A stretch of DNA of 64,000 bases from Actinopolyspora mortivallis DSM 44261 (GTDB lineage Bacteria; Actinomycetota; Actinomycetes; Mycobacteriales; Pseudonocardiaceae): the NCBI RefSeq assembly GCF_000384035.1, contig NZ_KB913024.1, positions 1,565,655 through 1,629,654 of the forward strand, read 5' to 3'. The position numbers were made by a program, and so were the translations under genes. Of the stretch, positions 5,945-30,954 are shown piece by piece. Under the pieces are notes generated by a model. The model was given only the letters and a program-made list of their open reading frames with translations, ran no database searches and was not told the origin of the DNA. How positions within the stretch are numbered: position 1 is the first letter of the stretch; every line of letters begins with the position of its first letter.

Positions 5945-6156
5945 GGTGGTCCCGGGGAGCCGGACAGCACCGGTTCCCCGCTCCGGAGCCTCCGTCCGTG
6001 GCGGAGGCGAACGCGCGAGTTCGGAGGAGTTTCCTCCCGGCGCCGTGTGTCGGACGAGGATCACGAAGGCAGACGTCCGGCCGACTCCCTACTATGCTGC
6101 CGAACAACCCGACAGGGTTTCGTTTCCGGCCGGCTCGCGTGGAAGGGCAGACGAGG

Positions 6157-13934: not shown

Positions 13935-14273
13935 TCATCCGAACAGCACGTGGAGTGTGCCCAGCGCGGCCACCAGGATCGCCAGTAGCGTGAGCACGGC
14001 CGGCAGCCGCCCGTCGGGCAGCGACTGGTTCTCCGGTGGAACCTTCCGGTTACCGGCGTGGTACCGCCGCACGGCGAGACCACTGGCCACCCCGGCCGTG
14101 GGAAGCAGCACGCAGGCCGCCCCCACCGCGAGGTCCGGTCGCGTGTGGGCCACCAACCGGAGCAACACCAGGGTGCCCCCGAGAAAGGCCAGGCAGGTGC
14201 GCAACCAGGCCAGGGCGGTGCGCTCGGTCGGCAGCCCGGGAGGTCCCCGGCGTTCTTCGCCCTCTCGGGACAT
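13935..14273 (-). CDS. DUF202 membrane protein (second of pair)
   Basis: 112 residues from the ATG at 14273 (GGAGCGAGGA just upstream). ERTALAWLRTCLAFLGG is the hallmark of DUF202 proteins, followed by two further hydrophobic segments, three in all. It lies 55 bases after a second DUF202 gene on the same strand, so the two are probably cotranscribed and may form a heteromer. Function unknown. In other bacteria such pairs are small inner-membrane proteins of the YidH/YidG type. Confidence 0.85.
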   Translation of the reverse strand: MSREGEERRGPPGLPTERTALAWLRTCLAFLGGTLVLLRLVAHTRPDLAVGAACVLLPTAGVASGLAVRRYHAGNRKVPPENQSLPDGRLPAVLTLLAILVAALGTLHVLFG

Positions 14274-14328: not shown

Positions 14329-14718
14329 TCATCTGTCCGACAGAAGCAGCAGCACCACGGCGACGAGTCCCACCACGGCGAGTCCGTAACCGAGAAAAGC
14401 ACCCAGGCGGGGAGGCGGCAGCGAGCGTCCGGTGCGCAACGCGTGTTCGGTGACGGCCCAGCGGGTGAACGCCACGGCGCTGACCACGATTCCGCCGAGC
14501 AGCAACAGCACCGCCAGCACGGTGACCAACGGGGTGCGCAGCAGACCCCCCGTGTTCAGCATCTCGATCCCGACCCCGGCGGCCATCAACGCCATCGCGG
14601 TACGCAGCCAGGCGAGGAAGGTCCGCTCGTTGGCCAAGGAGAAACGCGGGTCGGGGTCGGTACCGGCCTCGTAGACCCGGCGCGGCCAGCGCCGGGTTCC
14701 GTGGGACGGCGCGGACAT
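14329..14718 (-). CDS. DUF202/YidH-like membrane protein (first of pair)
   Basis: 129 residues. The ATG at 14718 follows AGGATGG. The DUF202 signature is RFSLANERTFLAWLRTAMAL (residues about 25-44), followed by three membrane segments and short polar loops. It is the upstream member of the DUF202 pair. Function unknown. YidH-type proteins are small inner-membrane proteins. Confidence 0.88.
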   Translation of the reverse strand: MSAPSHGTRRWPRRVYEAGTDPDPRFSLANERTFLAWLRTAMALMAAGVGIEMLNTGGLLRTPLVTVLAVLLLLGGIVVSAVAFTRWAVTEHALRTGRSLPPPRLGAFLGYGLAVVGLVAVVLLLLSDR

Positions 14719-15428: not shown

Positions 15429-15710
15429 ATGAGCGAGAGCGTCGAGGTCATGCGTCTGGGTGAGCACAGCTACGCCGCCGAGGTGCACGAGGCCGGCCAC
15501 ACCACCGAACACCGGGTGGTGCTCGGGCAGGAGGTGTTGGACGATCTGGCACCCCCACCTCCCGAGGAGAGCACCGTGGTGGCCGAGACGGTGCGGTACC
15601 TGCTGGACCGGCGTCCCTCCACGGCGCTGCCACACGACATCGACCTGGAGGAGCTGCGGGAGGCCGACGCCGGGTTCCTCCCGGAGCTGCGCGCACGACT
15701 CGGGGGGTGA
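15429..15710 (+). CDS. Small soluble hypothetical protein
   Basis: 93 residues from the ATG at 15429, just after GGAAGGGAGCAGGTG. The sequence is acidic, with VMRLGEHSYAAEVHEAGHTT and an EVLDDLAPP...TVRYLLDRR block. The C-terminus ELREADAGFLPELRARL looks helical. I recognise no family. Its stop overlaps the region of the LLM oxidoreductase start, which implies translational coupling to that flavin/F420 enzyme. Confidence 0.7.
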   Translation: MSESVEVMRLGEHSYAAEVHEAGHTTEHRVVLGQEVLDDLAPPPPEESTVVAETVRYLLDRRPSTALPHDIDLEELREADAGFLPELRARLGG

Positions 15711-15712
15711 GC

Positions 15713-16699
15713 ATGGCGCGCATCGGATACACCCTGATGACCGAACAGTCCGGGCCGCGTTCCCTGGTGGAGCACGCCGCGGCGGCCGAACGCAGCGGAT
15801 TCGACTTCGAGGTGATCAGTGACCACGTCTTTCCCTGGTTGACGCCGCAGGGACACTCGCCCTACGCGTGGAGTGTGCTGGGAGCGGTGACCCAGTCGAC
15901 CAGCGACATCGAGCTGATGACCTACGTGACCGCGCCGATCATGCGGTATCACCCCGTGGTGGTGGCCCAGAAGGCCGCGACGGTCGGCCTGTTGTCGGGA
16001 GACCGGTTCCTGCTCGGGCTCGGGGCCGGGGAGAACCTCAACGAGCACGTCGTCGGACGGGGCTGGCCCCCGGTGAACCTGCGGCACGAGATGCTCTCCG
16101 AGGCCATCGAGATCATTTCCGCGCTGTTCGACGGCGGCAGCGTCAACTACGTCGGGACCCACTACCGGGTGGACTCGGCCAGGCTGTGGGACCTTCCGGA
16201 CCGCAGGGTCCCCATCGGAACGGCGGTTTCCGGGCCGCAGTCGGTGAACCGGTTCGCCCCGATGTCCGATGTCATGATCGCCGTGCAGCCCGACGGGCAG
16301 CTCTGCGCGGACTGGGAGCGTCGTTCCCACTGGGTGGGGGACCGCAAGATAGGGCAGCTGCCGGTCTGCTGGGACCCCGACCGCGAGGCGGCGGTGAAAC
16401 GGGCTCACGAACAGTTCAGTTGGTTCGCCGGAGGGTGGAAGGTCAACGCTGAACTGCCCGGCCCGGCGGCTTTCGCCGCGGCGACACACTACGTACGTCC
16501 CGAGGACGTGGCCACGGCCATCCCGTGCGGGCCCGAGGTGGAGCCGATCGTCTCCGCGGTGTCGTCCTACCTCGACGCGGGTTTCACCGACGTGGCTCTC
16601 GTACAGGTGGGAGTCGACACCGATCCCGTCGGCTTCTTCCGGTTCGCCGAGAGAGAGTTGCTCCCCGCGCTGCGTGAGCTGGGAGGCGACGGCCGGTAG
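15713..16699 (+). CDS. LLM-class F420-dependent oxidoreductase
   Basis: 328 residues. I prefer the ATG at 15713 because GGGGGG lies 5 bases upstream; a GTG at 15707 overlaps the preceding stop. The TIM-barrel LLM signature is present: GYTLMTEQSGPRSLVEHAAA, FEVISDHVFPW, ELMTYVTAPIMRYHPVVVAQ, FLLGLGAGENLNEHV and GTAVSGPQS. It matches the subgroup of F420-dependent, glucose-6-phosphate-dehydrogenase-like enzymes (TIGR03557 type), which use deazaflavin F420 as hydride carrier. Substrate unknown. Confidence 0.85.
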   Translation: MARIGYTLMTEQSGPRSLVEHAAAAERSGFDFEVISDHVFPWLTPQGHSPYAWSVLGAVTQSTSDIELMTYVTAPIMRYHPVVVAQKAATVGLLSGDRFLLGLGAGENLNEHVVGRGWPPVNLRHEMLSEAIEIISALFDGGSVNYVGTHYRVDSARLWDLPDRRVPIGTAVSGPQSVNRFAPMSDVMIAVQPDGQLCADWERRSHWVGDRKIGQLPVCWDPDREAAVKRAHEQFSWFAGGWKVNAELPGPAAFAAATHYVRPEDVATAIPCGPEVEPIVSAVSSYLDAGFTDVALVQVGVDTDPVGFFRFAERELLPALRELGGDGR

Positions 16700-17583: not shown

Positions 17584-17934
17584 ATGAGCGGTCTCGGTGC
17601 GCTACCGGTGTTGTTCGGGATCGGACTGCTGGGGCTGGGCATCGCCTACGCGACGGCGCGAGCGTTGGCCGTGGCGGGGCCGGACCGGTCCGTCGACCAG
17701 TTCCTCCCCGGAGGGGAACCGGTCGAACACGCCTTCAGCCGGTTCCACGTGCGCTGGTACACGCTGGCGATGATCTATCTGGCCTTCGAGATGGAAATGC
17801 TGTTCATGTATCCGTGGACGCTGGTGGTGTCCACGGTGGGCGTACGAGCGGTCGTGGAGATGTTCGTCTTCCTCGGCATCCTGCTCGTCGGCGTGGTCCA
17901 CGCGTGGCGCGAGGGGGCGCTGCGTTGGGTGTGA
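17584..17934 (+). CDS. nuoA: NuoA-like subunit of a reduced complex I
   Basis: 116 residues from the ATG at 17584, which follows a GGGGGGG tract 5 bases upstream (a TTG at 17548 is also open). Three membrane segments. RFHVRWYTLAMIYLAFEMEM then YPWTLVV match the NuoA core, but two landmarks differ. The ECG cysteine of the first loop is replaced (FLPGGEP), and the FDVE motif reads FEME. In complex I NuoA wraps around NuoH beside the quinone entry. First gene of an eight-gene operon. The GTGA overlap with the next gene implies coupling. Confidence 0.88.
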   Translation: MSGLGALPVLFGIGLLGLGIAYATARALAVAGPDRSVDQFLPGGEPVEHAFSRFHVRWYTLAMIYLAFEMEMLFMYPWTLVVSTVGVRAVVEMFVFLGILLVGVVHAWREGALRWV

Positions 17935-19169
17935 GTCGAACCGTGCTGCGCCTGGCCCTGGCCCGGCCGCACGTGATGGTGCTCCAGGCAGTGGGCGGGA
18001 CGCGGGTCCGGCTGGCCGTGGACGATGAGCTGCGTCGCCGCGGATGGCCGAGCGCTCTGTCCCCGGCGGACACCGACGTGCTGGTACTGGCCGGGGCAGC
18101 GGGAGCCCGGTTGGCCGGGACGGTCCGATCCCTGTGGCGACGCGTACCGGAGCCGCGGCTGTTCCTCCACGTGGAGGAGGCCGGGGAGGTTCCGCGCCTC
18201 TTCGACAGCGTGCGGGACGAGCTGGCAGGGGGAGGGCGGCAACGGAGCCCTCTTCCGGAGTCCGGGGCCGACGCCGGAACGACCGAGGAAAACCGGGGAG
18301 AGAGAAGGTACTCGGACTCCTCCGGGAGGCGGACGGCTTCCCACGGGGGAACGCACGGGGAGGCGGAGGGCCACGAGCACCACGCGGGCACTGCTGAGGG
18401 GCTCGCCATGGCCGGACGCGGCCCGGACCGGGACGGTCTCGCCCTCGACCGGCTACACGTCCCCCTCGGACCGCCGCTTCCGGGATGGCCTCCCGGCCTG
18501 CTCGTTCACACCGTTCTGCAGGGAGACGTCCTTCAGCGGGTCGAGGCGGAACGGCTCGACGACCCCGACGCCGAGGGAGAGTTCTGGGGCGAACCGTGGC
18601 GCCACGCCGCCGAAGGACACCGTGTTACCAGGGGGCGGGCCGCACGCCGGGTGGTGGCTGCCCGGCTGGACAGCCTGGCGGGGTTACTCACGGTCGTGGG
18701 ATGGCCGGATCCGGCCGGACTCGCCCGGAGGATCCGGGACGAGACGTTGGCGGGAGGACCGGGGAGACGGCTGCGTGCCCGGATCGCCCGCCTGGCCGGG
18801 AGGCTGCGACGTAGCCGGACGCTGACCTGGCTCACCAGCGACATCGGGGTGCTCCCCACGGGGAGGGCCCACCGGGCCGGCTTCGGTGGAACCGTGCTGC
18901 GGGCGAGCCGGGCCGGCGGCGACGTGGCGGCACGGTGGCGGGAGTGGCTGACCGAGATCGAGCGCGGGGCACGCGAGGTCGACGACACCTCCGCCCTTTC
19001 CGGAACCACGGAGGCGCCCGCCTGGGTTCGTTCCGGTCCGGTACTGGAGGTGTTGCCCGCTCTGTTGGAGGGGGCCGAGCTGTCGGCGGCGCGGCTGACG
19101 GTGGCCAGCCTCGACCCGCGCGGCACCGGGACCCCGCCGGATGAGGGGTGGGGGTTCTCCGGTGCTTGA
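17931..19169 (+). CDS. Fused NuoB/NuoD-derived protein lacking all cluster cysteines
   Basis: 412 residues from the GTG at 17931, overlapping the nuoA stop. Residues 45-95 resemble NuoB: DTDVLVLAGAAGARLAGTVR then VPEPRLFLHV, aligning with the 'DVLVVAG...MPEP' block. Residues 165-205 resemble the NuoD C-terminal region: GPDRDGLALDRLHVPLGPPL and TVLQGDVLQ, with WLTSDIGVL further on. A His-rich linker (EGHEHHAGT) joins the halves. There is not one cysteine in the whole protein, so the N2 iron-sulfur cluster ligands of NuoB are gone, and most of NuoD is reduced. It cannot carry electrons as NuoB does. A structural cap coupling something else to the membrane arm is my inference. Confidence 0.75.
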   Translation: MSRTVLRLALARPHVMVLQAVGGTRVRLAVDDELRRRGWPSALSPADTDVLVLAGAAGARLAGTVRSLWRRVPEPRLFLHVEEAGEVPRLFDSVRDELAGGGRQRSPLPESGADAGTTEENRGERRYSDSSGRRTASHGGTHGEAEGHEHHAGTAEGLAMAGRGPDRDGLALDRLHVPLGPPLPGWPPGLLVHTVLQGDVLQRVEAERLDDPDAEGEFWGEPWRHAAEGHRVTRGRAARRVVAARLDSLAGLLTVVGWPDPAGLARRIRDETLAGGPGRRLRARIARLAGRLRRSRTLTWLTSDIGVLPTGRAHRAGFGGTVLRASRAGGDVAARWREWLTEIERGAREVDDTSALSGTTEAPAWVRSGPVLEVLPALLEGAELSAARLTVASLDPRGTGTPPDEGWGFSGA

Positions 19170-20085
19170 GACTCCGCTGTGGTGGCCGGCGGTCCTGCCC
19201 GTGGCACTCGGCGGGTTCGCCTGCGGTGCGGTCGCCTTCGACTCGGTGCTCTCGGCCCGGGCGGGTGGTACTTCCTCCGGGAGGGAACTCCTCACACCCC
19301 TGCGGGAGACGGTCCGGTCGCTGGTGACCCAGCGGCGCGGAACCCGCGCGGCCGACACGGTGCTGTGGCGGGTGGGGGTGGCGGCCGTGCCCGTGGCGGC
19401 GTTGTTGGCCGCGCTCGTGCTGCCGCTCGGCAAGTACGTCGTGGCCGATCCCGACGTGGGGATCGTGTGGTTCAACGCGGCGGAGATTCTGGGATGGGCG
19501 GCCGTGTGGGCCGCTGGGTGGGGGGCGAACTCGGTTTTCTCCCTGGTCGGTGGATATCGGTTCGTGGCCCAGGGACTGTGTTACGAGCTGCCGCACATGT
19601 TCGCCCTGATCGCCGTGGCCACGGCGGCGGGGACGTTGCGGGTGGGGGAGGTCGTCGAGGCCCAGCGGAACGTCTGGTTCGTGGCGTGGATGCCGGTGGC
19701 GTTCGTGGTGTATCTGATCAGTGCGGCCGCGATGGCTTTCCGGGCCCCGTTCGGCGCCCCGGTGGGCACGGACCTGGCCGGCGGTGCGGCCACGGAGCTG
19801 TCCGGCGTGGATCGTCTGCTGTTCCTGGCGGGCAGGTGGCTGCTGTTCGTGGTGGCCCTCGCCTTCTCCGTGCCGTTGTTCCTGGGCGGTGGACAGGGAC
19901 CGCTGCTGCCGCCGTGGTTGTGGAGCGTGGTCAAGACGGCCGGGGTGGTGACGTGTGTCGTCTGGCTGTCCCGTCGTTTCCCGACGGTGCGCGTGGACAG
20001 GTTCGCCGAGTTCTCCTGGACGGTGCTGCTGCCGGCGAGTCTGCTGCAGGTGCTGGTGGTGTCGGTGATGGTGCTGATCCGGTGA
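19162..20085 (+). CDS. nuoH: NuoH-like subunit of a reduced complex I
   Basis: 307 residues from the GTG at 19162, chosen for GGGGTGGGGG 7 bases upstream; the ATG at 19141 has no ribosome site. About eight membrane segments. GLCYELPHMFALIAV corresponds to the conserved YE(I/L)P helix. AFRAPFGAPVGTDLAGGAAT then ELSG corresponds to the quinone-loop block, normally PEAE.ELv.gyhtEYSG. Here the PEAE carboxylates are replaced by PVGT. NuoH carries the link between quinone chamber and proton pumps, so these changes argue against ordinary ubiquinone/menaquinone coupling. It overlaps the upstream gene by 8 bases. Confidence 0.85.
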   Translation: MLETPLWWPAVLPVALGGFACGAVAFDSVLSARAGGTSSGRELLTPLRETVRSLVTQRRGTRAADTVLWRVGVAAVPVAALLAALVLPLGKYVVADPDVGIVWFNAAEILGWAAVWAAGWGANSVFSLVGGYRFVAQGLCYELPHMFALIAVATAAGTLRVGEVVEAQRNVWFVAWMPVAFVVYLISAAAMAFRAPFGAPVGTDLAGGAATELSGVDRLLFLAGRWLLFVVALAFSVPLFLGGGQGPLLPPWLWSVVKTAGVVTCVVWLSRRFPTVRVDRFAEFSWTVLLPASLLQVLVVSVMVLIR

Positions 20086-20094
20086 GGAGTAACG

Positions 20095-20679
20095 GTGCAG
20101 ACGGTTCTTGCCTGGGGTTTCGGTGTGCTCGCCGTGGTGTGCGCCCTACTGGTCTTCCGGCTGGACTCGATGGCCCGGGTGACCTTCGCCCTGCTGGCCT
20201 CGTTCCTGTTCGTCGCCTTCGAGGTGCTGCTGCTGGGGCTGAACTACCTCGGGGTGGTGCTCGTGCTGATGACGGTCATGGAGATGGTGATCATGGCCGT
20301 TTTCATGGTCATGTACATGATGAACCCGGCCGGACTGGTGCCCATGGCCATGTACCACAACAGGGCGGGCGCGATGGCGGTCTCGGTCGGCACCTTCTGC
20401 CTGCTGGCGGCCGGGACCCTGCTCGTGGACTGGCCGGAACGGGTGGGACGCCCCGTGTCCGATCCCACAGCGGAGCTCGGGGCGGAACTGATGTCCTCCC
20501 AGATGCCGACGATGATGACTCTGGGCATGGTGCTGTTCGCCGCGATCCTCGCCACGGTGACCCTGTCTATGCCCAGGGGACGTTACGACCGTTTCGGGGG
20601 GAGCCCGCGCGGTCGTCCCACCGACCCGGTTCCGGGGGGCCTCGGCCCCACGACCGTGTCGCCGGGGGAGCGGCGATGA
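20095..20679 (+). CDS. nuoJ: NuoJ-like subunit of a reduced complex I
   Basis: 194 residues. The GTG at 20095 follows GTGAGGAGTAACG. Five predicted membrane segments. The N-terminal LDSMARVTFALLASFLFVAF and EVLLLGLNYLGVVLVLM match the conserved helix 2-3 region of NuoJ, with a Met-rich run VMEMVIMAVFMVMYMMNPAG after it. The loop PVSDPTAELGAELMSSQMPT precedes the last helix. NuoJ lies between NuoH and NuoK in the membrane arm. The gene is coupled to nuoK by an ATGA overlap. Confidence 0.88.
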   Translation: MQTVLAWGFGVLAVVCALLVFRLDSMARVTFALLASFLFVAFEVLLLGLNYLGVVLVLMTVMEMVIMAVFMVMYMMNPAGLVPMAMYHNRAGAMAVSVGTFCLLAAGTLLVDWPERVGRPVSDPTAELGAELMSSQMPTMMTLGMVLFAAILATVTLSMPRGRYDRFGGSPRGRPTDPVPGGLGPTTVSPGERR

Positions 20680-20981
20680 CTCCGGAACCGTTTCTGCTCA
20701 CCGCCTCCGCGCTGTTCGCGACGGGACTCTACGGGGCCCTGTCCCAGCAGTCGATCGTGATGCTGATGATGGGGCTGGAGCTGATGATCGCCGGGGTCGT
20801 GCTCGCCGCGGCCGCGTTCCACCACCTCGTGAATCCGGAGGCCTCCGAGGGGCAGGTGCTCGTCCTGGTGACCGTCACCGCCATGGCGGTGGAGATGGCG
20901 GTGGGTTTCGCCGTGGTCACGGCCCTGTTCCGGGCCAGGGACGTGGACACCAGCGACCAGGCCGCCGACCTGCGGGGGTAG
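20676..20981 (+). CDS. nuoK: NuoK-like subunit of a reduced complex I
   Basis: 101 residues from the ATG at 20676, overlapping the nuoJ stop. Three membrane helices. Both essential glutamates appear conserved: one in LMMGLELMIAGVVLAA (helix 2) and one in VTAMAVEMAVGFAVVTALF (helix 3). These form part of the E-channel in complex I, so this stretch of the proton path looks usable. The QQSIVML start of helix 2 is typical. Confidence 0.9.
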   Translation: MTPEPFLLTASALFATGLYGALSQQSIVMLMMGLELMIAGVVLAAAAFHHLVNPEASEGQVLVLVTVTAMAVEMAVGFAVVTALFRARDVDTSDQAADLRG

Positions 20982-20984
20982 TTG

Positions 20985-22856
20985 ATGGCCTTCCTGGTGT
21001 GGTCGTTGGTCCTGCTACCCGTCCTGACCGGGGGCGTGCTGGCCTGTACGGGCACACGCGGTGCGGTGCCCGCCTTTCCCGTCGGGATCGCCGTGGCCGC
21101 GGCGGATCTGGTGGCGGCCGTGGCGGCCACGGTCGTGCGTCCGAGTTCCGAGGTGCCGCTGTTCCGGGGAATCGGGTTCGGGCTGGCCGTGGAGGGTCCG
21201 TCGGGTCTGTTGCTCGTCCCGGTCACCGCGGTGGTCCTCGCGGTGCTGTGGTTCTGCGCCACGGCGATCGGCCCGCGCGAGTCGGCGGCCAGGTTCACCG
21301 GGCTGATGCTGGTGTTCTCCGGGGCCATGCTGGGAACCGTCACCGCCTCCGGGTTGGTCCCGTTGCTCGTCTGCTGGGAGGTCATGGGGGCGACGAGCTG
21401 GGCGCTGATCGGCTTCTGGTGGCGGCGGAACACCGCCGTGCGGGCCGCGAACACCGCACTGCTCACCACCAGAAGCGCCGACCTCGGGATGTACGTGGCC
21501 GCCGGTTCCGCCCTGGCCGGGGGAGCGGGTTCGCTGGCCCTGGACGAGCTTCCGGAGCTCGCGGCCCCCTGGTCCACCGTGGCCGCGGGCGGACTCGTGG
21601 TGGCCGCGCTGGGCAAGTCGGCCCAACTGCCGTTCCACTTCTGGCTCTCCCGGGCGATGGAAGGTCCCAGCGGGGTTTCGGCTCTGTTGCACTCGGCGAC
21701 CATGGTCGCGGCGGGCGGGTACCTGCTGCTGCGCGTGCACCCCCTGCTCGCCGAGGAGAGCGGGGTTGCTGCGGCCACGGCCTGGATCGGGGCGCTCACC
21801 GCGCTGGTGCTGGGACTGGTGGCCGTGGCCCAGCGGGACCTCAAGCAGTTGTTGGCCGCCTCCACCTCGGCCCAGCTGGGTTTCGTCGTGCTCGCCGCTG
21901 GTACCGGCGGCGTGTTCGGCGGTACGGCGCATCTGGTGGCGCACGCGGCGACGAAGGCGGCACTGTTCCTCGTGGCCGGAGCCTGGCTGGTCGGGTTCGG
22001 CACCGAGAGGTTGGTGGAACTGCGGGGAGTGGGGCGGGTCCGGGGTGGACTCGGAGGGGTTTTCACGCTCGCCGCGGCGGTGCTGGCCGGACTGCCTCCG
22101 CTGTCGTTGTGGGCGACCAAGGACGGGATTCTGGCCGGGCTCGGCGAACACGACGCGGCGCTGTACTCCCTCGGAACGGCGGCGGCGACACTGGCCACGC
22201 TCTACGGGGTCAAAGCCGTCCGGCTGGTGCTGACACCCCCACCGGGTGGGCCGCCCGTCGTGCGGCAGGGGACCGAATCCGGGGGAGGCCTCCCACCTGG
22301 ACGCGCGATCCCCGCCCCGGCCCTGTTGTCCGCGGCGGCGGCCGTGCTCGGAGTCCTCACCCTGCCGTGGACGTCCGAGCGCCTTTCGCGCGCGATCGGT
22401 GTTTCCGCCCCGGCCGTTCCCACTCCGGCGGAAGGAGCGTTCTCCGCCGCGCTCGCCGTGGTCACGGCCGCGGTGGTCTGGTGGTGGGGGCGGCGTCCGC
22501 CGCCCGTTCCCGCCAGGATCCGTTCCGGGCTGCGCCGTTGGGGGGTGTTCGGAACCCCACTGGCTCGGTTGCCCGTACGCGCGCTCGCCGCGCTGGCCGC
22601 CGCGTTGGCGACGTTCGACGACCGTGTGCTCGACCGTGGTGTGCACGCGCTGGCCGGGGCTGGGATCCGGTCGGCACGTGCGCTCGAACGGGCGGTAGAA
22701 CGCCCGTTGAACGGAGGGGTGTACACGCTGTCCGCCGTCGTGGGCGGTCTCGGACGGACGGCCCGGCGGGCACAGACCGGCCTGCTGCACCAGTACTACG
22801 CCCAGGCCGTGGTCGCGCTCCTCGCGCTGGCGTTGCTGCTGCTGGTGGTGAGGTGA
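20985..22856 (+). CDS. nuoL: NuoL-like antiporter subunit
   Basis: 623 residues from the ATG at 20985; TTG at 20982 is also in frame. This is a Mrp/NuoL-type subunit. The pump residues are conserved: Glu in LLVCWEVMGATSWALIGFWW (helix 5), Lys in AALGKSAQLPFHFWLSRAME (helix 7), and HAATKAALFLVAG (helix 12 region). A long C-terminal part after a Gly/Pro-rich linker (PPGGPPVVRQ) contains an amphipathic segment and a final membrane helix, as expected for the lateral helix HL. The distal pump of the arm therefore looks intact. Confidence 0.9.
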   Translation: MAFLVWSLVLLPVLTGGVLACTGTRGAVPAFPVGIAVAAADLVAAVAATVVRPSSEVPLFRGIGFGLAVEGPSGLLLVPVTAVVLAVLWFCATAIGPRESAARFTGLMLVFSGAMLGTVTASGLVPLLVCWEVMGATSWALIGFWWRRNTAVRAANTALLTTRSADLGMYVAAGSALAGGAGSLALDELPELAAPWSTVAAGGLVVAALGKSAQLPFHFWLSRAMEGPSGVSALLHSATMVAAGGYLLLRVHPLLAEESGVAAATAWIGALTALVLGLVAVAQRDLKQLLAASTSAQLGFVVLAAGTGGVFGGTAHLVAHAATKAALFLVAGAWLVGFGTERLVELRGVGRVRGGLGGVFTLAAAVLAGLPPLSLWATKDGILAGLGEHDAALYSLGTAAATLATLYGVKAVRLVLTPPPGGPPVVRQGTESGGGLPPGRAIPAPALLSAAAAVLGVLTLPWTSERLSRAIGVSAPAVPTPAEGAFSAALAVVTAAVVWWWGRRPPPVPARIRSGLRRWGVFGTPLARLPVRALAALAAALATFDDRVLDRGVHALAGAGIRSARALERAVERPLNGGVYTLSAVVGGLGRTARRAQTGLLHQYYAQAVVALLALALLLLVVR

Positions 22857-22859
22857 CCC

Positions 22860-24368
22860 GTGCTGAGTCTGGTGGTGTTCCTCCCGTTGGCGGTGGCGGC
22901 GGCGTTGGCCCCGCTTCCCTCCACCGTCTCCCCGCGGGTGTTCACGGTGGGGTGGGTGTGCGCGGCGGCGGTCGACGCACTGCTGGTCCTCGTGGTGTGG
23001 CTGGTTCACGCGGCGGGTACGGGCATCACGTTCGAACAGCGGGTGCCCTGGATCCCCGGAGCGGGGGTGGGGTACCACGTCGGCGTGGACGGGTTGTCCC
23101 TGCCGCTGGTGGGGCTCACCTCCGCACTGTTTTTGGCCTGTGCGGTCCACTCGGTGCACCGCACGCGCGGCGTCAAGGGATTCGTGCTGCTGTTCCTGTT
23201 CCTGCAGACGTGCTGTCTCGGACTGTTCACCGCGCTGGACCTGATCCTCTTCTTCGTCTACTTCGACCTGTCCATCGTGGGGATGTACTTCGTGATAGCC
23301 GGCTGGGGCAGTGGCAACGCCGGGCCCTCGGCCCTGAAGTTCTTCCTGTACACGTTCCTCGGTTCGCTGGCGCTGCTGCTGGGTTTCCTCGGCCTCTACC
23401 TGGCCGCCGAGCCGCACACCTTCGACATCGTCGAACTCGCCCGGGCCGCCCCGCTGTCGGGACAGGGAGTGTTCGGCGCGCTGGTACTGGGAGCGATCGG
23501 GGTGGGGCTGCTGATCAAGACGCCGGTCTTCCCCTTCCACACCTGGATGCCCCCCGCGCACACGGACGCGCCCGCCGTCGGTTCGGTGATCCTCGCCGGA
23601 GTGCTGTTGAAGATGGGCACCTACGGGTTCGTGCGGATCGCCATGCCCCTGCTGCCCCGAACCTGGAACGAGTACGCCTGGCTCGTGGTGCTGCTGGGGG
23701 TGGTCTCGGTCCTCTACGGAGCCCTGGTCGCCTTCGCCCAGGAGGACTTCAAACGCATGGTCGCCTACACCTCGGTCAACCACATGGGATACGTGATCCT
23801 CGCCCTGGGTTCGGCGGGGTTGGCCGTCGGCTCGGCGGAGCAGGCTCGTGTGCTGGCCGTGACCGGGGCCGTCACCCAGATGGTCAGCCACGGGCTGCTC
23901 ACCGGGGTGCTGTTCCTGCTCGCGGGAGCGCTGTACGCGCGGGGAGGAACCCACGCCATGGGACAGTACTCCGGGCTGGCCGGACCCGCGCCGGTGTTCG
24001 CCGGTGTCACGGCCGTGACCGTGTTCGCCTCGTTCGGGATACCGGGGTTTTCCGGGTTCGTCGCCGAGTTCCAGATCCTCGCCGGAGCACTGGCCACCGC
24101 CACCCTCGCCGCGGCCCTGGCGCTGCCGGGCATCCTGGTCACGGCCGCGTTGCTGCTGCGTGCGCTGCACCGGATCTGCCTCGGTGAACGACCTTCGATC
24201 CCTCCCCGCCCCACGGAGGGCTCCCACGACTTCACCGACCTGCGAGCGAACGAACTGACGGCGATGCTTCCGCTGCTCGGTGCGGCCCTGCTGATCGGGA
24301 CGCTGCCCCGCTGGCTGCTCGCCCCCATCGAAGCCGGAGCCGTCCACCTCGTCGGGGCGATCGGTTGA
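22860..24368 (+). CDS. nuoM: NuoM-like antiporter subunit
   Basis: 502 residues. The GTG at 22860 is 3 bases after nuoL. About 14 membrane segments. The Lys of helix 7 is present (GLLIKTPVFPFHTWMPPAHT). The helix-5 Glu, normally in (F/W)EL.L.PMYFLI, is Asp here: FFVYFDLSIVGMYFVIAGWG, and the Pro has become Gly. KRMVAYTSVNHMGYVILALG and GLLTGVLFLLAGALY are typical. In complex I this is the middle pump. Glu to Asp may preserve function. Confidence 0.9.
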   Translation: MLSLVVFLPLAVAAALAPLPSTVSPRVFTVGWVCAAAVDALLVLVVWLVHAAGTGITFEQRVPWIPGAGVGYHVGVDGLSLPLVGLTSALFLACAVHSVHRTRGVKGFVLLFLFLQTCCLGLFTALDLILFFVYFDLSIVGMYFVIAGWGSGNAGPSALKFFLYTFLGSLALLLGFLGLYLAAEPHTFDIVELARAAPLSGQGVFGALVLGAIGVGLLIKTPVFPFHTWMPPAHTDAPAVGSVILAGVLLKMGTYGFVRIAMPLLPRTWNEYAWLVVLLGVVSVLYGALVAFAQEDFKRMVAYTSVNHMGYVILALGSAGLAVGSAEQARVLAVTGAVTQMVSHGLLTGVLFLLAGALYARGGTHAMGQYSGLAGPAPVFAGVTAVTVFASFGIPGFSGFVAEFQILAGALATATLAAALALPGILVTAALLLRALHRICLGERPSIPPRPTEGSHDFTDLRANELTAMLPLLGAALLIGTLPRWLLAPIEAGAVHLVGAIG

Positions 24369-25780
24369 TGGAGTCCGGATTCACCGCACTGCTGCCCGAG
24401 ACGATCCTGGCCACGGGGGCCGTCCTCGGTTTGCTGCTGGGATCCTGGCTGCCGCTGCGACACCAGTGGCCGGTGCGGCTGATGGCGGTACTGGCCTGCC
24501 TGCTCGGACTGGCCGCGGTGTTCGCGGCACCACCACTTCCCCATCCGGTCTTCGGGGGCAGCTACGCGGTGGACGTCGCCACGCAGACGGGCCGGGTGGT
24601 GGTGCTGGGCGGCACCTTGCTGGTGATCCTGCTGTCGGCGGAGTCGGTGCGTTCCCACCCCAGGGAGACCGAGTTCCACGTGCTCGTGCAGCTCGGGGCG
24701 TTGGGCACGCTCGTGCTGCTCGGTGCCACGGATCTGTCCCTGCTGGTCGCGGGCTATCTGCTCGCCTCGGTCCCCCTGTACGCCCTGGCGGGGTTCCGCG
24801 GGGATGCCGTGGGAACGGAGGCCGCGCTGAAGTACTACCTGCTGGGGGCGTTGTTCGGGGTCGTCATGATCGCGGGGGCGACCCTGCTCTACGGGGTGGG
24901 GCGTTCCACCGGTTACGCGGTGCTCGCCCGTACTCTGCCCACGGCCCCACCGAGCGTGGTCGCGATCGCCGCCGTGGCTCTGCTGGCCGGATTGCTGTTC
25001 AAGGCCGGGGCGGTGCCCACCCAGTTCTGGATCCCCGACGTGACCAGAGGGGCGGACGCGGCCGTGGCCGCCCTCGTGACCACCCTGCCGAAGATCGGTG
25101 GACTGGTGGCCCTGTTCCGCCTGGTGGAAGGGGTGTTCCCGGCGGGTGGTGGATGGCCGGTGCTGTTCGCGCTCCTGGCCACCGCGGCCATGACGCTCGG
25201 CAACCTCGCCGCGCTGAACCAGCCGACGGTGCGGGGGTTGTTGGCCTACTCCACCATCAGCCAGGTCGGGTACCTGCTGCTGGCGGTGACGGTGGCCGGC
25301 GAGAGCGAGTTCGCCGGACCGGCGCTGCTGTACTATCTGCTCGCCTACGCGGTGACCAACCTCGGGGCTTTCGCCGTGGTGTGCCGGTTTCCGTACGCCG
25401 AGACACCCCGGGACTATCGGGGGATGGCCCGATGGCGGCCGGGCGCGGCCGTGGTACTGCTCGTGTGCCTGCTGGGGCTGGTGGGAACACCTCCCACAGC
25501 GGTTTTCCTCGGCAAACTGCGAGTGTTTGTGGCGGCCGTGGACGGTGGGTACGGGTGGTTGGCCGCGGTCGCCGTGGTCAACACCGTGATCAGTCTCTTC
25601 TACTACCTGCGTTGGCTCGTTCCCGTGTTCCTGCCGGCGGTGTCCGCCCGGGACGGCGGTCCGGTTCCCACCGGAGGGCGGGCGGCTCTCGGCGGCGGGA
25701 TCGCGGCCTCGGTGTCCCTGCTGGCCGGAATCGGTGCCGGGCTGTTCCTCCCGCTGTTGGACGGGCCGGTGTTGCCCTGA
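24368..25780 (+). CDS. nuoN: NuoN-like antiporter subunit
   Basis: 470 residues from the ATG at 24368 (TGATG overlap with nuoM). About 14 membrane segments. EAALKYYLLGALFGVVMI, FKAGAVPTQFWIPDVTRGAD (helix-7 Lys present) and LLAYSTISQVGYLLLAV are typical. The helix-5 segment reads LLVAGYLLASVPLYALAGF, where family members have E(L/M)LSLPLY: the pump Glu is Ala. That residue is needed for proton transfer in standard complex I, so the proximal pump may be silent or altered. Last membrane-arm gene of the operon. Confidence 0.9.
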   Translation: MESGFTALLPETILATGAVLGLLLGSWLPLRHQWPVRLMAVLACLLGLAAVFAAPPLPHPVFGGSYAVDVATQTGRVVVLGGTLLVILLSAESVRSHPRETEFHVLVQLGALGTLVLLGATDLSLLVAGYLLASVPLYALAGFRGDAVGTEAALKYYLLGALFGVVMIAGATLLYGVGRSTGYAVLARTLPTAPPSVVAIAAVALLAGLLFKAGAVPTQFWIPDVTRGADAAVAALVTTLPKIGGLVALFRLVEGVFPAGGGWPVLFALLATAAMTLGNLAALNQPTVRGLLAYSTISQVGYLLLAVTVAGESEFAGPALLYYLLAYAVTNLGAFAVVCRFPYAETPRDYRGMARWRPGAAVVLLVCLLGLVGTPPTAVFLGKLRVFVAAVDGGYGWLAAVAVVNTVISLFYYLRWLVPVFLPAVSARDGGPVPTGGRAALGGGIAASVSLLAGIGAGLFLPLLDGPVLP

Positions 25781-25986: not shown

Positions 25987-26298
25987 ATGCCCTTCACCGC
26001 GACGAAACTCCTGCTGATAGGTGACTCCGCCGAGCTGGAGAGGTTTCGTGACTGGGCACGGCGGGCTGGTTTCCGGCTCGTCGGGAGAGTGGACCCGGAA
26101 GTGCGGTACGTGATCGCCGACGAGGACGTGCTCGACGGCGACTGCACTCCGGAGCAGGGATACTGGCTGGCTCGGGCCAGGGCGACCGGGCTGGAGTGCC
26201 TGTCCCCGGCCACCGGGAAGTCCCGACTGTGCCGGATCCTGGAGGGCAGGGTCCCGGAGGAACAGGAACGCGCTCGACTGCTCACCGGCGGTCGTTAG
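25987..26298 (+). CDS. Small stand-alone BRCT-like protein
   Basis: 103 residues. The ATG at 25987 follows AGGGAGCGGCC. The pattern LLLIGDSAELERFRDWARRA, GFRLVGRVDPEVRYVIADE and QGYWLARARATGLECLSP is that of a BRCT or BRCT-like domain: a strand ending in G(D/N)S, a helix, 'V...V.YVIA(D/E)', 'K..KA...G'. The C-terminus EEQERARLLTGGR is helical. In larger proteins such a domain recognises phosphopeptides or DNA ends. It is 206 bases after nuoN on the same strand, but I see no functional link. Confidence 0.6.
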   Translation: MPFTATKLLLIGDSAELERFRDWARRAGFRLVGRVDPEVRYVIADEDVLDGDCTPEQGYWLARARATGLECLSPATGKSRLCRILEGRVPEEQERARLLTGGR

Positions 26299-26712: not shown

Positions 26713-27687
26713 CTACCGGGAGGCTTCCCGCAACGGGGGGCAGCCGCGTGAGGCGATTCTCTCGGCGGCGGGGGCGGTGGAGGACCGGGCGACCTCGATC
26801 GTGGTGTGGTCGATGTCGAACCGTTCGTCCAGCAGTTCGCTCAGGTGTTTCCGGACGGCGTCGGGATCGCAGTGGTCGTGGACGACGACGTGGGCCGAGA
26901 GCGCCGGGAAACCGGAGGTGATTTCCCAGACGTGCAGATCGCCGATACCGGTGACCCTGGGGTCGGAGAGCAGCTCGGAGCGGATCTCGGCCGGATCGAG
27001 GCCCCTGGGGGCCGCCTGGAGGAACACCCGCGCGGACTCGGCGACCAGGGAGAGCCCGGACTTGAGCATCAGGGCCGCGACCACCAGTGCGGCCAGTCCG
27101 TCGGCGCGCATGAATCCCGTGGTCAACACGAGCACTCCCGAGACCGTGGTGCCGAGGAAGGCGTACAGGTCGTTGAGCACGTGCTGGAAGGCCCCTTCGA
27201 TGTTGAGGCTGTCCCGGTTGGCCTTCGCCAGGATCCAGGTGGCGAGCAGGTTCACCAGGACGCCGATGCTTCCCACCACCAACACGGTGAGTCCGCCCAC
27301 CTCGGGTGGGTCAATCAGGCGGGTGATGCCTTCGTAGCCGAGATAGCCGCCGAGTGCGGTGAGCGTGAGGCCGTTGACCGAGGCGGCCAGGGTGCCCGAG
27401 CGCTTGAGGCCGAAGGTGTAGGAGCCGAAGCTGCCCCAGCTGCTCAGTGTCATGGCGATCAGGGCGAAGGCGATCGAGGCCGTGTCACTGAGCATGTGCG
27501 CGGCGTCCGAGAGCAGCGCCAGCGAGTTGGCCACGAGAGCCGCCACGGTCTCACCGACCATGAACCCGCCCAGCAGGAGCAGGGCGAGGAGCAGTTTTCT
27601 CCTGTCGGCGTGGGGACTCACCCCGTGACTGTGACCGTGACTGTGGCCGTGCTGTGTCGTGGGGGAGTCTGACTCTCGCGGGTGCAC
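26713..27687 (-). CDS. Cation diffusion facilitator (Zn/Co-type exporter)
   Basis: 324 residues from the GTG at 27687 (GGAG 8 bases upstream). His-rich N-terminus HGHSHGHSHG, six membrane segments and a cytosolic C-terminal domain. The transport-site motifs are LLSDAAHMLSD in helix 2 and HVLNDLYAF in helix 5 (a His/Asp-type site typical of zinc exporters of the CzcD/ZitB kind). ITSGFPALSAHVVVHDHCD matches the ferredoxin-like cytosolic domain. It exports divalent metal in exchange for protons. The short inverted repeat upstream may be its metal-responsive operator. Confidence 0.92.
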   Translation of the reverse strand: MHPRESDSPTTQHGHSHGHSHGVSPHADRRKLLLALLLLGGFMVGETVAALVANSLALLSDAAHMLSDTASIAFALIAMTLSSWGSFGSYTFGLKRSGTLAASVNGLTLTALGGYLGYEGITRLIDPPEVGGLTVLVVGSIGVLVNLLATWILAKANRDSLNIEGAFQHVLNDLYAFLGTTVSGVLVLTTGFMRADGLAALVVAALMLKSGLSLVAESARVFLQAAPRGLDPAEIRSELLSDPRVTGIGDLHVWEITSGFPALSAHVVVHDHCDPDAVRKHLSELLDERFDIDHTTIEVARSSTAPAAERIASRGCPPLREASR

Positions 27688-27880: not shown

Positions 27881-27899
27881 TACCCCCCTACCGTATGAT
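27881..27899 (+). promoter_or_regulatory. Candidate CsoR operator over the csoR promoter
   Basis: TACCCCCCTACCGTATGAT ends in the -10-like TATGAT. It aligns with the copA operator (TACCCCCGTAGGGTATAAC) at 14 of 19 positions, with the same left arm TACCC. This suggests that CsoR also controls its own gene. Confidence 0.55.
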
Positions 27900-27994: not shown

Positions 27995-28276
27995 ATGCGC
28001 GGATACACGCAGGACAAGGAGGACTACCTCAAGCGGCTGCGGCGTATCGAGGGGCAGGTCCGAGGGCTGGCCCGCATGATCGAGAACGACGAGTACTGCA
28101 TCGACGTGCTGACCCAGATCTCGGCGGCCACCAAGGGGCTGCAGGCCGTCTCCCTCGGGCTGCTCGACGAGCATCTCAAGCACTGTGTCGCCGAGGCCTT
28201 GACCGAGGGTGGCCAGGACGCCGACGAGAAGGTCCGCGAGGCCAGCGACGCGATCGCGCGCCTGGTCCGTTCGTGA
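27995..28276 (+). CDS. csoR: CsoR-family copper-sensing repressor
   Basis: 93 residues. I start at the ATG at 27995 with GGGAG 6 bases upstream; a GTG at 27917 is open but adds unrelated sequence. All-helical: KRLRRIEGQVRGLARMIEND then C-H-C copper ligands at Cys35 (DEYCIDVL), His60 and Cys64 (LLDEHLKHCV), matching the C36-H61-C65 set of Mycobacterium tuberculosis CsoR. Apo-CsoR binds operators and Cu(I) releases it. The divergent-looking operator and the copper ATPase gene 326 bases downstream complete a standard circuit. Confidence 0.92.
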   Translation: MRGYTQDKEDYLKRLRRIEGQVRGLARMIENDEYCIDVLTQISAATKGLQAVSLGLLDEHLKHCVAEALTEGGQDADEKVREASDAIARLVRS

Positions 28277-28602: not shown

Positions 28603-30954
28603 ATGATGACCGGTCGACAGGACACGGCCTCCGCGGCGACCACGACCGAGACGGAACTGTCCATAAGCGGGATGACCTGCGCCTCGTGCGCCGCACGCAT
28701 CGAGCGCAAACTCAACAGGCTCGACGGGGTCGCCGCCACGGTCAACTACGCCACGGAGAAGGCCCGGGTGCGCCACCCGGTGGGCATGGGCACGGATGAG
28801 CTGGTCGACACCGTGAAGGCGGCCGGCTACGACGCCGTCCCCCCGGCCGCGGACTCCCGCGCCTCCGAACCGTCCCGGCAGGATCCCTCCTCCACCGAGG
28901 AGCGCGACACCGAGCTCGAAGGGTTGCGCGTGCGACTGCTCGTCTCGGCGTCGTTGTCCGTGCCGGTGGTGGCGCTGGCGATGATTCCCGCCCTCCAGTT
29001 CACCTACTGGCAGTGGATCTCGCTCACTCTGGCGGCCCCCGTGGTGGTGTGGGGGGCGCTGCCGTTCCACCGGGCGAGTTGGACCAATCTCCGCCACGGT
29101 GCGGTCACCATGGACACGTTGATCTCGATGGGCACCCTGGCTGCCTTCGGGTGGTCGTTGTACGCGCTGCTGCTGGGCGGAGCCGGTGTCCCCGGGATGA
29201 CGCACGGATTCGAGTTCGTGGCCGAACGCGGTGGTGGTGGGGAACAGATATATCTGGAGGTCGCCGCGGGAGTGACCACCTTCCTCCTGGCCGGCAGGTA
29301 CTTCGAGTCCCGGGCCAAACGTCGTTCGGGAGCCGCCCTGCGTTCCCTGCTCCAACTCGGCGCCAAGGACGTCACCGTCCTCCGTGAGGGGCAGGAACGG
29401 CGCGTTCCCGTGGAGGAACTGGGGGTGGACGATCACTTCGTGGTACGGCCTGGTGAGAAGATCGCCACAGACGGGGTGGTCGTCGACGGTGCCTCGGCGG
29501 TGGACACCAGCATGGTGACGGGGGAGTCCGTTCCGCTGGAGGTGGGGCCCGGCTCCTCGGTGACGGGAGCCACCGTCAACGCCGGAGGAAGGCTGGTCGT
29601 CCGTGCCACCCGGGTCGGATCCGACACCCAGTTGGCCCGGATGGCCAAGCTGGTCGAGGACGCCCAGGCGGGCAAGGCGCGGGTCCAACGGCTCGCCGAC
29701 CGCGTCTCGGCCGTGTTCGTCCCCGTGGTGATCGCGCTCGCCCTCGGAACCCTGGTGTTCTGGTTGCTCTCCGGCGGCGGTGTGACCACGGCCTTCACCG
29801 CCGCCGTGGCCGTGCTGATCATCGCCTGCCCCTGCGCGCTCGGGCTGGCCACTCCGACCGCTCTGATGGTCGGGACCGGCCGGGGCGCCCGGTCGGGAAT
29901 CCTGATCAAGGGGCCCGAGGTGCTGGAGTCGACCAAGAGGGTCGACACGGTGGTGTTGGACAAGACCGGGACCGTGACCGAGGGACGCATGGAACTCGTC
30001 GACGTCCGGCCCGCCGACGGTGAGTCGGAACAGGAGGTGCTCCGGATCGCGGCGGCCCTGGAAGACGGATCGGAGCACCCCGTGGCGCGGGCCGTGGTCG
30101 ACGCCGCACGGACACGGGTGCGGAACCTGCCGGAGATCCAGGAGTTCTCCAATGTGGAAGGACTCGGTGTCCGCGGCGTCGTCGACGGGAGGACGGTGCT
30201 GGTGGGGCGGCAGCGTCTGCTCGAACAGCACGGTGTCGTCGTGCCCGACTCGTTGGACACGGCCAGGGACGAGGCCGAACGGAAGGGCGGCACCGCGATC
30301 ATGGTGGCCTGGGACGGAAGAGCCCGCGCGGTGCTGGCCGTCTCCGACACCGTCAAACCGACGGCGGCCGAAGCCGTTCGGGGGATGCGTGAGCTCGGAC
30401 TGAAGCCGATGCTGCTCACCGGGGACAACAGGGCCGCCGCCGAGGCGATCGCCTCCCGGATCGGTGTCGAGGAGGTCGTCGCCGAGGTGCTGCCTCGGGA
30501 GAAGGCGGACGTCGTCGAACGGCTGAGAGAGCGGGGAAGCACGGTCGCCATGGTCGGTGACGGGGTCAACGACGCCGCGGCACTGGCCCGGGCCGACCTC
30601 GGGTTGGCGATGGGGACCGGCACCGACGTGGCGATCGAGGCCGGGGACCTCACACTGGTGCGGGGGGATCCACGGGCCGTCGTCGACGCGATCAGGCTGT
30701 CCCGCCGAACCCTGCGCACGATCAAGGGCAACCTGTTCTGGGCCTTCGCCTACAACGTCGCCGCCCTTCCGTTGGCGGCGGCGGGTCTGCTCAACCCGAT
30801 GATCGCTGGTGCGGCCATGGCCTGCAGTTCCGTGTTCGTGGTCAGCAACAGCCTCCGGCTGCGTGGTTTCCGCGGCAGCGGGTCGGGGCAGCCGGCGGAA
30901 CACGAGTCCGAGCGGAGTGGGATCCCGAGCTCCCCTGTTCACGCGAGCCGGTGA
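28603..30954 (+). CDS. copA: Copper-translocating P1B-type ATPase
   Basis: 783 residues from the ATG pair at 28603/28606, preceded by GGAAGGGA. An ATG at 28495 lies about where transcription should begin and would add 36 residues as a leaderless start. One N-terminal metal-binding domain (GMTCASCAARIE), eight membrane helices with the Cu(I) motif CPC (IIACPCALGLATPTALMVG), the phosphorylated Asp in DKTGTVTEG, the SEHP(V/L) motif and the hinge MVGDGVNDAAALA are all intact. It pumps Cu(I) out of the cytosol. Control by CsoR is strongly indicated by the promoter. Confidence 0.95.
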   Translation: MMTGRQDTASAATTTETELSISGMTCASCAARIERKLNRLDGVAATVNYATEKARVRHPVGMGTDELVDTVKAAGYDAVPPAADSRASEPSRQDPSSTEERDTELEGLRVRLLVSASLSVPVVALAMIPALQFTYWQWISLTLAAPVVVWGALPFHRASWTNLRHGAVTMDTLISMGTLAAFGWSLYALLLGGAGVPGMTHGFEFVAERGGGGEQIYLEVAAGVTTFLLAGRYFESRAKRRSGAALRSLLQLGAKDVTVLREGQERRVPVEELGVDDHFVVRPGEKIATDGVVVDGASAVDTSMVTGESVPLEVGPGSSVTGATVNAGGRLVVRATRVGSDTQLARMAKLVEDAQAGKARVQRLADRVSAVFVPVVIALALGTLVFWLLSGGGVTTAFTAAVAVLIIACPCALGLATPTALMVGTGRGARSGILIKGPEVLESTKRVDTVVLDKTGTVTEGRMELVDVRPADGESEQEVLRIAAALEDGSEHPVARAVVDAARTRVRNLPEIQEFSNVEGLGVRGVVDGRTVLVGRQRLLEQHGVVVPDSLDTARDEAERKGGTAIMVAWDGRARAVLAVSDTVKPTAAEAVRGMRELGLKPMLLTGDNRAAAEAIASRIGVEEVVAEVLPREKADVVERLRERGSTVAMVGDGVNDAAALARADLGLAMGTGTDVAIEAGDLTLVRGDPRAVVDAIRLSRRTLRTIKGNLFWAFAYNVAALPLAAAGLLNPMIAGAAMACSSVFVVSNSLRLRGFRGSGSGQPAEHESERSGIPSSPVHASR

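Follow-up and report, generated by a model that had tools for sequence, protein, structure and literature searches.

Among the systems that share membrane subunits with respiratory complex I (NDH-1), the closest described counterpart of the module considered here is a partial NDH-1 operon of marine actinomycetes with the order nuoA-hypothetical-nuoHJKLMN (PMC6676996; also PMC3314556 and PMC6002675). The portions of these papers available describe it as Salinispora 'partial 2', in Kocuria flava S43 and in Streptomyces SM17 and SM18, take it for a salt-related pump of protons or sodium, and state in a figure legend that neither UniProt nor PDB holds a homologue of the hypothetical proteins. We analysed a 64,000-nucleotide stretch of the Actinopolyspora mortivallis DSM 44261 genome (the window), in which eight genes at 17584-25780 show the same order, with a NuoB/NuoD fusion in the place of the hypothetical protein between nuoA and nuoH. 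Judged from published gene order, not from sequence comparison, the marine partial operon is very probably the same module.

Respiratory complex I itself supplies homologues of the A, H, J, K, L, M and N subunits and of the remnants of B and D. The module differs from it in having no C, E, F, G or I subunit, no ligands for the iron-sulfur (Fe-S) cluster N2, no NuoD quinone motif, and a methionine-rich core. In the Mrp (CPA3) antiporter, antiporter-like subunits are likewise coupled to a cation path: protons are proposed to enter via these subunits and Na+ to leave via the region of the small subunits (PMC7419157). The available part of that paper further proposes that the route by which Na+ leaves Mrp coincides with the E-channel, and that in the redox pumps electron transfer takes the place of cation movement. 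Unlike Mrp, the module keeps A, H and a B/D protein, carries methionines beside the E-channel acids, and has a different operon order; matches to the Mrp E, F and G families were not listed for any of the eight proteins in Pfam at E up to 10, a search in which the HMMER filters drop most weak matches. The energy-converting hydrogenase-related (Ehr) complexes have a NuoD-like subunit without a working metal site, a feature in common with the module, in which the NuoB ligands are lost as well. A 10-gene cluster of other actinomycetes (A-B-C-H-I-J-K-L-M-N) is also a second, incomplete nuo cluster.

Whether the eight genes form a redox-dead complex I membrane arm used in copper homeostasis is, in our estimate, about evenly balanced. 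An initial annotation of the locus is borne out in part; it had missed that the module belongs to a widespread family, that its core is rich in methionine, and that copper genes lie beside it. What is new here is the gain of methionine in the core subunits, the His/Met linker of the fusion, the clustering with copper genes, and the CsoR-type operators at a minority of loci.

Organization of the module

The operon comprises the following genes, in window coordinates:

17584..17934, + strand: nuoA-like gene (A2); Pfam Oxidored_q4, 81.5 bits; E71 is the E81 equivalent; M75 gained.
17931..19169, + strand: B/D fusion (BD2) without cysteine, identified by family profile, model and alignment; a degenerate NuoB half (residues ~1-100), a disordered His-containing linker (111-163) and a degenerate NuoD half (~164-403).
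18261..18419, + strand: BD2 linker, residues 111-163; pLDDT <50; contains HGGTHGEAEGHEHH.
19162..20085, + strand: nuoH-like gene (H2); Pfam NADHdh, 173.7 bits; E216/E218 equivalents lost; M146 and M177 gained.
20095..20679, + strand: nuoJ-like gene (J2), methionine-rich; Pfam Oxidored_q3, 37.4 bits.
20676..20981, + strand: nuoK-like gene (K2); E35 and E73 kept; M29/M31/M70/M74 gained.
20982..22856, + strand: nuoL-like gene (L2); E133/D167/K212/K325/K380 kept.
22860..24368, + strand: nuoM-like gene (M2); K220/K251/E403 kept; the E144 equivalent is D136.
24365..25780, + strand: nuoN-like gene (N2); K213/K243/K384 kept; the E133 equivalent is L132.

All seven of the canonical subunits (A, H, J, K, L, M, N) score above the Pfam cut-off, and J2 matches NuoJ-type chains in the PDB with a best E of 4.4e-11. 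The HMM search of the fusion suggested in the initial annotation gives a weak result with Pfam alone (E 0.12), and the family profile and the structural model were therefore needed to see its B/D nature. The operon contains no NuoC, E, F, G or I, and there is no Fe-S gene in the cluster; an operon without NADH or Fe-S subunits had been described correctly from the start. The search for a full nuo operon elsewhere in the genome, also foreseen there, was answered by a 14-gene operon.

Relatives were collected in three sets that share species. In the family set, 150 genomes of Pseudonocardiaceae were screened for a fusion homologue, giving 39 loci; among the fusion rows of this set L067 was dropped and the window added. 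In the class set, 394 sampled genomes were searched with the fusion profile at a match cut-off of >100 bits; its 27 loci, from 26 genomes other than the window's own, include L189, a fusion fragment without called module genes. The named set consists of the best 80 of 432 stretches of named genomes that encode a NuoH2 relative, and is thus ranked by similarity rather than random. As controls we used eight regions: three 14-gene and four 10-gene nuo clusters, assigned by gene order, and one region, L191, with no nuo cluster.

The electron path and the proton path

Judged from the sequences, the electron path of complex I is lost: the N2 ligands, the NuoD quinone motif and two glutamates of the NuoH quinone loop are gone. 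The motifs CC, GAC, PGCP, HPxxHG and CxxC occur in none of 109 fusion rows, which hold 94 distinct sequences because some species entered twice, and the window fusion has no cysteine at all. The description of this protein as a fusion with NuoB and NuoD pieces that is unable to hold N2, given in the initial annotation, is thereby confirmed. In 106 of the 109 rows (91 distinct), GPxLxxWPxG replaces the GPxHPxxHG of NuoD, and the hydrogenase CxxC metal ligands are found in the D-like part of 0/94 distinct fusions. For NuoH we take the numbering to be that of E. coli and assume the roles generally assigned to E36, R46, D213, E216, E218, E220 and E228. On this basis E216 is kept in 0/80 sequences, E218 is deleted in 80/80, and E36 is kept in 3/80; E157 is kept in 80/80. 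NuoJ Y59 has become Met in 77/78 sequences and is Thr in the window copy.

These losses bear on the idea, raised in the initial annotation, of a redox pump served by an unknown donor that docks on the fusion. The D part of the fusion does retain a NuoD-like fold, and NuoH still has some of its quinone-side residues. However, because the NuoB cysteines, the NuoD quinone motif and NuoH E216 and E218 have been lost, docking of a donor is not supported, and with no Fe-S gene in the cluster we regard a donor-driven pump as very improbable. An upstream gene (15707-16699), which we take to encode an F420-type oxidoreductase-like protein, was considered as the donor and set aside; it is not among the recurring neighbour clusters.

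In contrast to the electron path, the proton path is preserved almost residue for residue in the alignments of A, K, L, M and N. NuoL retains E144/D178/K229/K342/K399 in 73/73 sequences and NuoM retains K234/K265/E407 in 76/76, while NuoN has K217 in 76/77 and both K247 and K395 in 77/77. In NuoK, E36 is present in 78/78 and E72 in 72/78, the rest having Asp; in NuoA, E81 is present in 74/74 and position 79 is Asp in 67 and Glu in 7. Two changes are fixed, NuoM E144 to Asp (76/76) and NuoN E133 to Leu (77/77). The arm thus still looks able to move ions, and the earlier proposal of a proton or sodium channel or antiporter pointed in the right direction.

Methionines and histidines gained by the module

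We scored a Met, His or Cys as gained when it is present in at least 90% of members and in no canonical sequence of the comparison set, which held 3 to 8 sequences per subunit and only 3 for NuoJ. By this measure J2 has gained 14 near-invariant methionines and H88, with a signature of approximately LMMxMEMxxMxxxMxMxMMNPxGLMPMxMxH. Elsewhere the gains are four Met in K2, two each in A2 and H2, one Met in M2, one His in L2 and none in N2. The class sample, which is independent, has Met at every one of the 14 J2 positions in 26/26 sequences, and likewise at the K2 and H2 positions; for A2, M75 is Met in 26/26 (and is gained in 74/74 of the NuoA2 alignment) and M70 in 15/26. Each of six canonical NuoJ sequences has Met at 0/14 of the J2 positions.

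Overall composition follows the same trend in J2, where Met makes up 9.5% of residues compared with 2.7% in E. coli NuoJ, 2.6% in the NuoJ of the 14-gene operon in the window's genome, and 1.6% over the called genes of the window. K2 contains 7.7% Met against 4.0-5.1% in canonical NuoK. The contents of A2 (4.9% vs 2.7-4.2%) and H2 (2.6% vs 1.6-4.6%) are not unusual, and those of L2, M2 and N2 are below their canonical counterparts.

The new methionines lie near the acids of the E-channel: M146 near E142 in H, M75 near E71 in A, M31 near E35 and M70 and M74 near E73 in K, with E63 of J placed among M59-M67. In the predicted structure of J2 (pLDDT 74.6, pTM 0.55), M59 to M76 fall within one helix, residues 50-76, and at 100 degrees per residue M60, M64, M67, M71 and M75 would project within 80 degrees of one another.

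The second potential metal-binding element is the linker of the fusion. In 70 fusions of the named set, the linker contains 13.4% His and 6.1% Met, as compared with 3.0% and 1.2% in the remainder of the protein, and at least five His are present in 50/70. The Lysobacter linker is a run of HDQMDH-like repeats. The other ten named loci did not enter these statistics: motif-based extraction gave no fusion at L075, L079, L108, L129, L130, L132 and L146, and the sequences from L074, L088 and L090 were short or in the wrong frame. We considered whether a His-poor linker marks the loss of copper neighbours; this failed, as several His-poor fusions adjoin copper operons.

Copper genes beside the module

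Downstream of the module, the window contains three metal-related genes:

26713..27687, - strand: CDF cation efflux protein; Pfam Cation_efflux, 120.5 bits; 0.9 kb past nuoN.
27995..28276, + strand: CsoR-type repressor; Pfam Trns_repr_metal, 103.7 bits; 2.2 kb past nuoN.
28603..30954, + strand: copper-type P-type ATPase (Cu-ATPase) with an HMA domain, by Pfam and over the TIGR01511 cut-off; 2.8 kb past nuoN.

Actinopolyspora biskrensis (L074), in which more genes intervene, likewise has CDF, CsoR and CopA genes downstream of its module. Immediately past nuoN, a gene at 25987-26298 encodes a small 103-residue protein, and a protein 73% identical to it is encoded near the module of L033, from the same genus. 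On the other side of the operon, at 14329-14718 and 13935-14273, two consecutive small membrane-protein genes lie on the - strand; their products presumably resemble DUF202-type proteins.

Across the relatives, this association is far more frequent than expected. In the 36 family genomes with a fusion, which together have 109 genes over the TIGR01511 cut-off, 13 of 40 fusion loci have a Cu-ATPase at most 5 kb away, where uniform placement would give 0.20; within 10 kb the count is 14 (0.41 expected) and within 15 kb it is 18 (0.61 expected). In the class sample, DUF305 is found within 10 kb at 8/27 loci (0.29 expected) and a multicopper oxidase at 6/27 (0.24 expected). These two also lead a Pfam tally of 139 of the 153 genes beside the class modules (DUF305, 6; multicopper oxidase, 5), in which most families appear once or twice. 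A census with seven home-made marker profiles and a simple home-made gene caller found at least one copper marker at 49/80 named, 12/27 class and 23/39 family loci, and at 0/8 controls. Between the HMA and Cu-ATPase genes of L111, positions 6102-7100 encode a 320-residue protein with a leader-like start; its profile matches 18/80 named loci, and Pfam, searched with E up to 0.01, gives no family for it.

A subset of loci also has a CsoR-type operator. The operator of Streptomyces lividans CsoR is described in the available text as ATATACCCCTNAGGGGTATAT with TAC-X9-GTA (PMC3902906), and we searched for TACCC-N(4-6)-GGGTA within 300 bases upstream of genes. The exact box precedes nuoA2 at 14/99 loci and 17/1019 other genes. 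When boxes near CsoR, HMA and CopA starts are removed, the counts are 9 and 10 (p 1e-5), three of the nine remaining nuoA2 boxes being identical ones from Pseudonocardia. With one mismatch allowed, a box precedes nuoA2 at 22/99 loci and 29/1019 other genes. One locus, L170, has the exact box, no copper marker in the examined stretch, and a multicopper oxidase within 20 kb. In the window, csoR is preceded by a CsoR-like box with 2 mismatches at 27881.

The same observations could describe an importer that provides copper to the enzymes requiring it, for example the multicopper oxidases encoded nearby, since the sequence evidence leaves the direction unfixed. The CsoR and Cu-ATPase neighbours point instead to excess copper, and an importer seems improbable to us.

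Distribution, mobility and descent

The module is a widespread, mobile family rather than a local oddity. A fusion homologue is present in 36 of the 150 family genomes (own included) and in 18/46 genera, and the fusion profile matches 27 of the 394 class genomes, again counting the window's own. The complete order A-BD-H-J-K-L-M-N is found at 64/80 named, 23/27 class and 35/39 family loci, some of the others being cut by contig ends. Two Lysobacter species are among the best 80 of the 432 stretches, and the Lysobacter NuoM groups with those of Brachybacterium and Kocuria (support 100/99), which indicates transfer across phyla; the Lysobacter locus L132, absent from the 70 fusions, was read separately. 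Plasmid records also carry the module, 13 with NuoH2 (E up to 1e-30) and 14 with NuoJ2 (E up to 1e-8). Of the 13 matches, six plasmid regions were examined; five have genes for a heavy-metal ATPase, CsoR, HMA, DUF305 or a multicopper oxidase near the module, and in the sixth, from Rhodococcus, the module is surrounded by mobile, plasmid and hypothetical genes only. A NuoH2 scan of viral contigs gave no relative.

Some individual loci merit mention. L153 is the Mycobacterium avium plasmid pHP17a, and plasmids from sputum isolates carry the module beside genes for a heavy-metal ATPase and an HMA protein; the fusion of L153 carries the annotation DUF4779. At L062 (8118-10496), the fusion continues in frame through NuoH and NuoJ in the gene call, but a masked stretch inside makes this unsure. 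One genome that has a complete module (L051) also contains an isolated fusion-NuoH pair (G024:C3/L067), perhaps a remnant, with no full module around it.

In the NuoM tree, in which E. coli NuoM and the 14-gene NuoM of the window's genome have long branches, the fusion-type sequences form one clade (97/99) apart from the sampled 14-gene and 10-gene clusters. The 10-gene cluster keeps the B cysteines and NuoI, forms its own NuoM clade (90/96), and has 0/14 of the J methionines; with its different gene set, derivation of the module from it is not supported. At the four 10-gene loci (L190, L192, L194 and L195), no NuoD, E, F or G was called, and the cluster stands divergent beside two 2-oxoacid:ferredoxin oxidoreductase-like genes, named from motifs and order. 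For a complex I, the absence of NuoD would in itself be unusual.

Could the module be a decaying duplicate of complex I? The degenerate B and D parts and the longer branch of the window NuoM (0.48 vs 0.10-0.11 for its nearest relatives) would fit decay. The mostly complete gene order, the fixation of new residues and the presence on plasmids argue against it, as does dN/dS, which is 0.24-0.60 in eight of ten pairs of relatives, the other two having no synonymous change. We consider decay the least credible of the explanations discussed here. Because the ion path is kept, the electron path is lost and selection is purifying, the module is not a pseudogene, and it is no ordinary oxidoreductase either.

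The distribution also bears on the published view of the operon. Actinopolyspora is a halophilic genus, and Mrp is a relative of the module. Both points favor a pump for sodium or protons that serves adaptation to marine or osmotic conditions, the role proposed for Salinispora, Kocuria and sponge Streptomyces in the available text of PMC3314556, PMC6676996 and PMC6002675. The redox drive that such a pump would need is absent, however, and the module also occurs in isolates from soil and sputum and on plasmids that carry metal cassettes. Methionine, moreover, is a ligand for soft metals and not for Na+. Carrier strains were isolated from copper-rich mine fluid (PMC6676996) and a copper mineral (PMC6002675), origins that are noted in the available text without the operon being tied to copper. 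The B/D nature of the hypothetical protein, its linker, the methionines and a copper link are likewise not stated for the partial operon in the available text of the three papers, and a literature search, which did not cover supplements and in which PMC6676996 was not searched for 'copper', gave no text linking the operon to copper. We consider a salt-related pump rather unlikely.

A proposed model for copper-coupled ion movement

If the arm does serve in copper homeostasis, it might represent a new class of transporter, in which movement of Cu(I) along the methionine-lined E-channel replaces electron transfer to quinone, with copper ions either driving the three antiporter-like subunits or being driven by them. 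We put this forward tentatively, with a confidence somewhat short of even. In this model the linker and the old quinone pocket would collect Cu(I) at the cytoplasmic face, and the ion would then move along the methionine-lined E-channel. This step would be coupled electrostatically to proton entry via L, M and N, as has been proposed for Na+/H+ exchange in Mrp. With the redox half discarded and the E-channel given soft-metal ligands, the module would have undergone the reverse of the exchange proposed for redox pumps. The outcome would be Cu(I)/H+ exchange, with export more likely than import because CsoR, a Cu-ATPase and multicopper oxidases are neighbours. That copper is carried, in which direction and with what stoichiometry, is what we infer from these data.

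The strongest rival to Cu(I) transport is a copper-gated channel for protons or monovalent cations, in which metal bound on the fusion would open or close the arm and restore pH or membrane potential under copper stress, with no copper carried. The kept proton path, the His/Met linker and the copper context are all compatible with gating, which requires no metal path; the near-invariant methionines of J, K, A and H would then not be needed. We consider gating unlikely, albeit a serious possibility.

Several observations weigh against a copper transporter. The gained methionines could be structural. NuoH has not lost every quinone-site residue: R46 is kept in 17/80 sequences, D213 in 50/80 and E228 in 78/80, and E220 is Asp in 77/80. 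No copper marker was found in the examined stretch of 31/80 named, 15/27 class and 16/39 family loci; Cu-ATPase is present at only 2/27 class loci; and the exact operator box is missing ahead of nuoA in 85/99. As the loci are related, the p values overstate their independence. Fewer than five His precede the motif in 20/70 fusions, some of which adjoin copper operons (L116, L118, L136 and L149). The window copy, in addition, is atypical of the family. Its J2 has 12/14 of the methionines, with T60 and V82 differing, its linker is free of Met-His repeats and, over the 60 residues ahead of the motif, counts five His and one Met, and its nuoA has no box even at two mismatches. The copper link is therefore well supported for the family and weaker for the window copy.

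Implications

A role of this module in copper homeostasis would offer a different reading of the published 'marine adaptation' operon. Perhaps hundreds of genes labelled 'NADH dehydrogenase' could then be re-annotated, given the 432 stretches that encode a NuoH2 relative. How redox chemistry is coupled to proton pumping in complex I is still debated, and a natural redox-free version, with an E-channel apparently refitted for a metal ion, would separate the two halves of that question. If our proposal is true, copper biology gains a large multi-subunit transporter carried on plasmids of soil and clinical actinobacteria.

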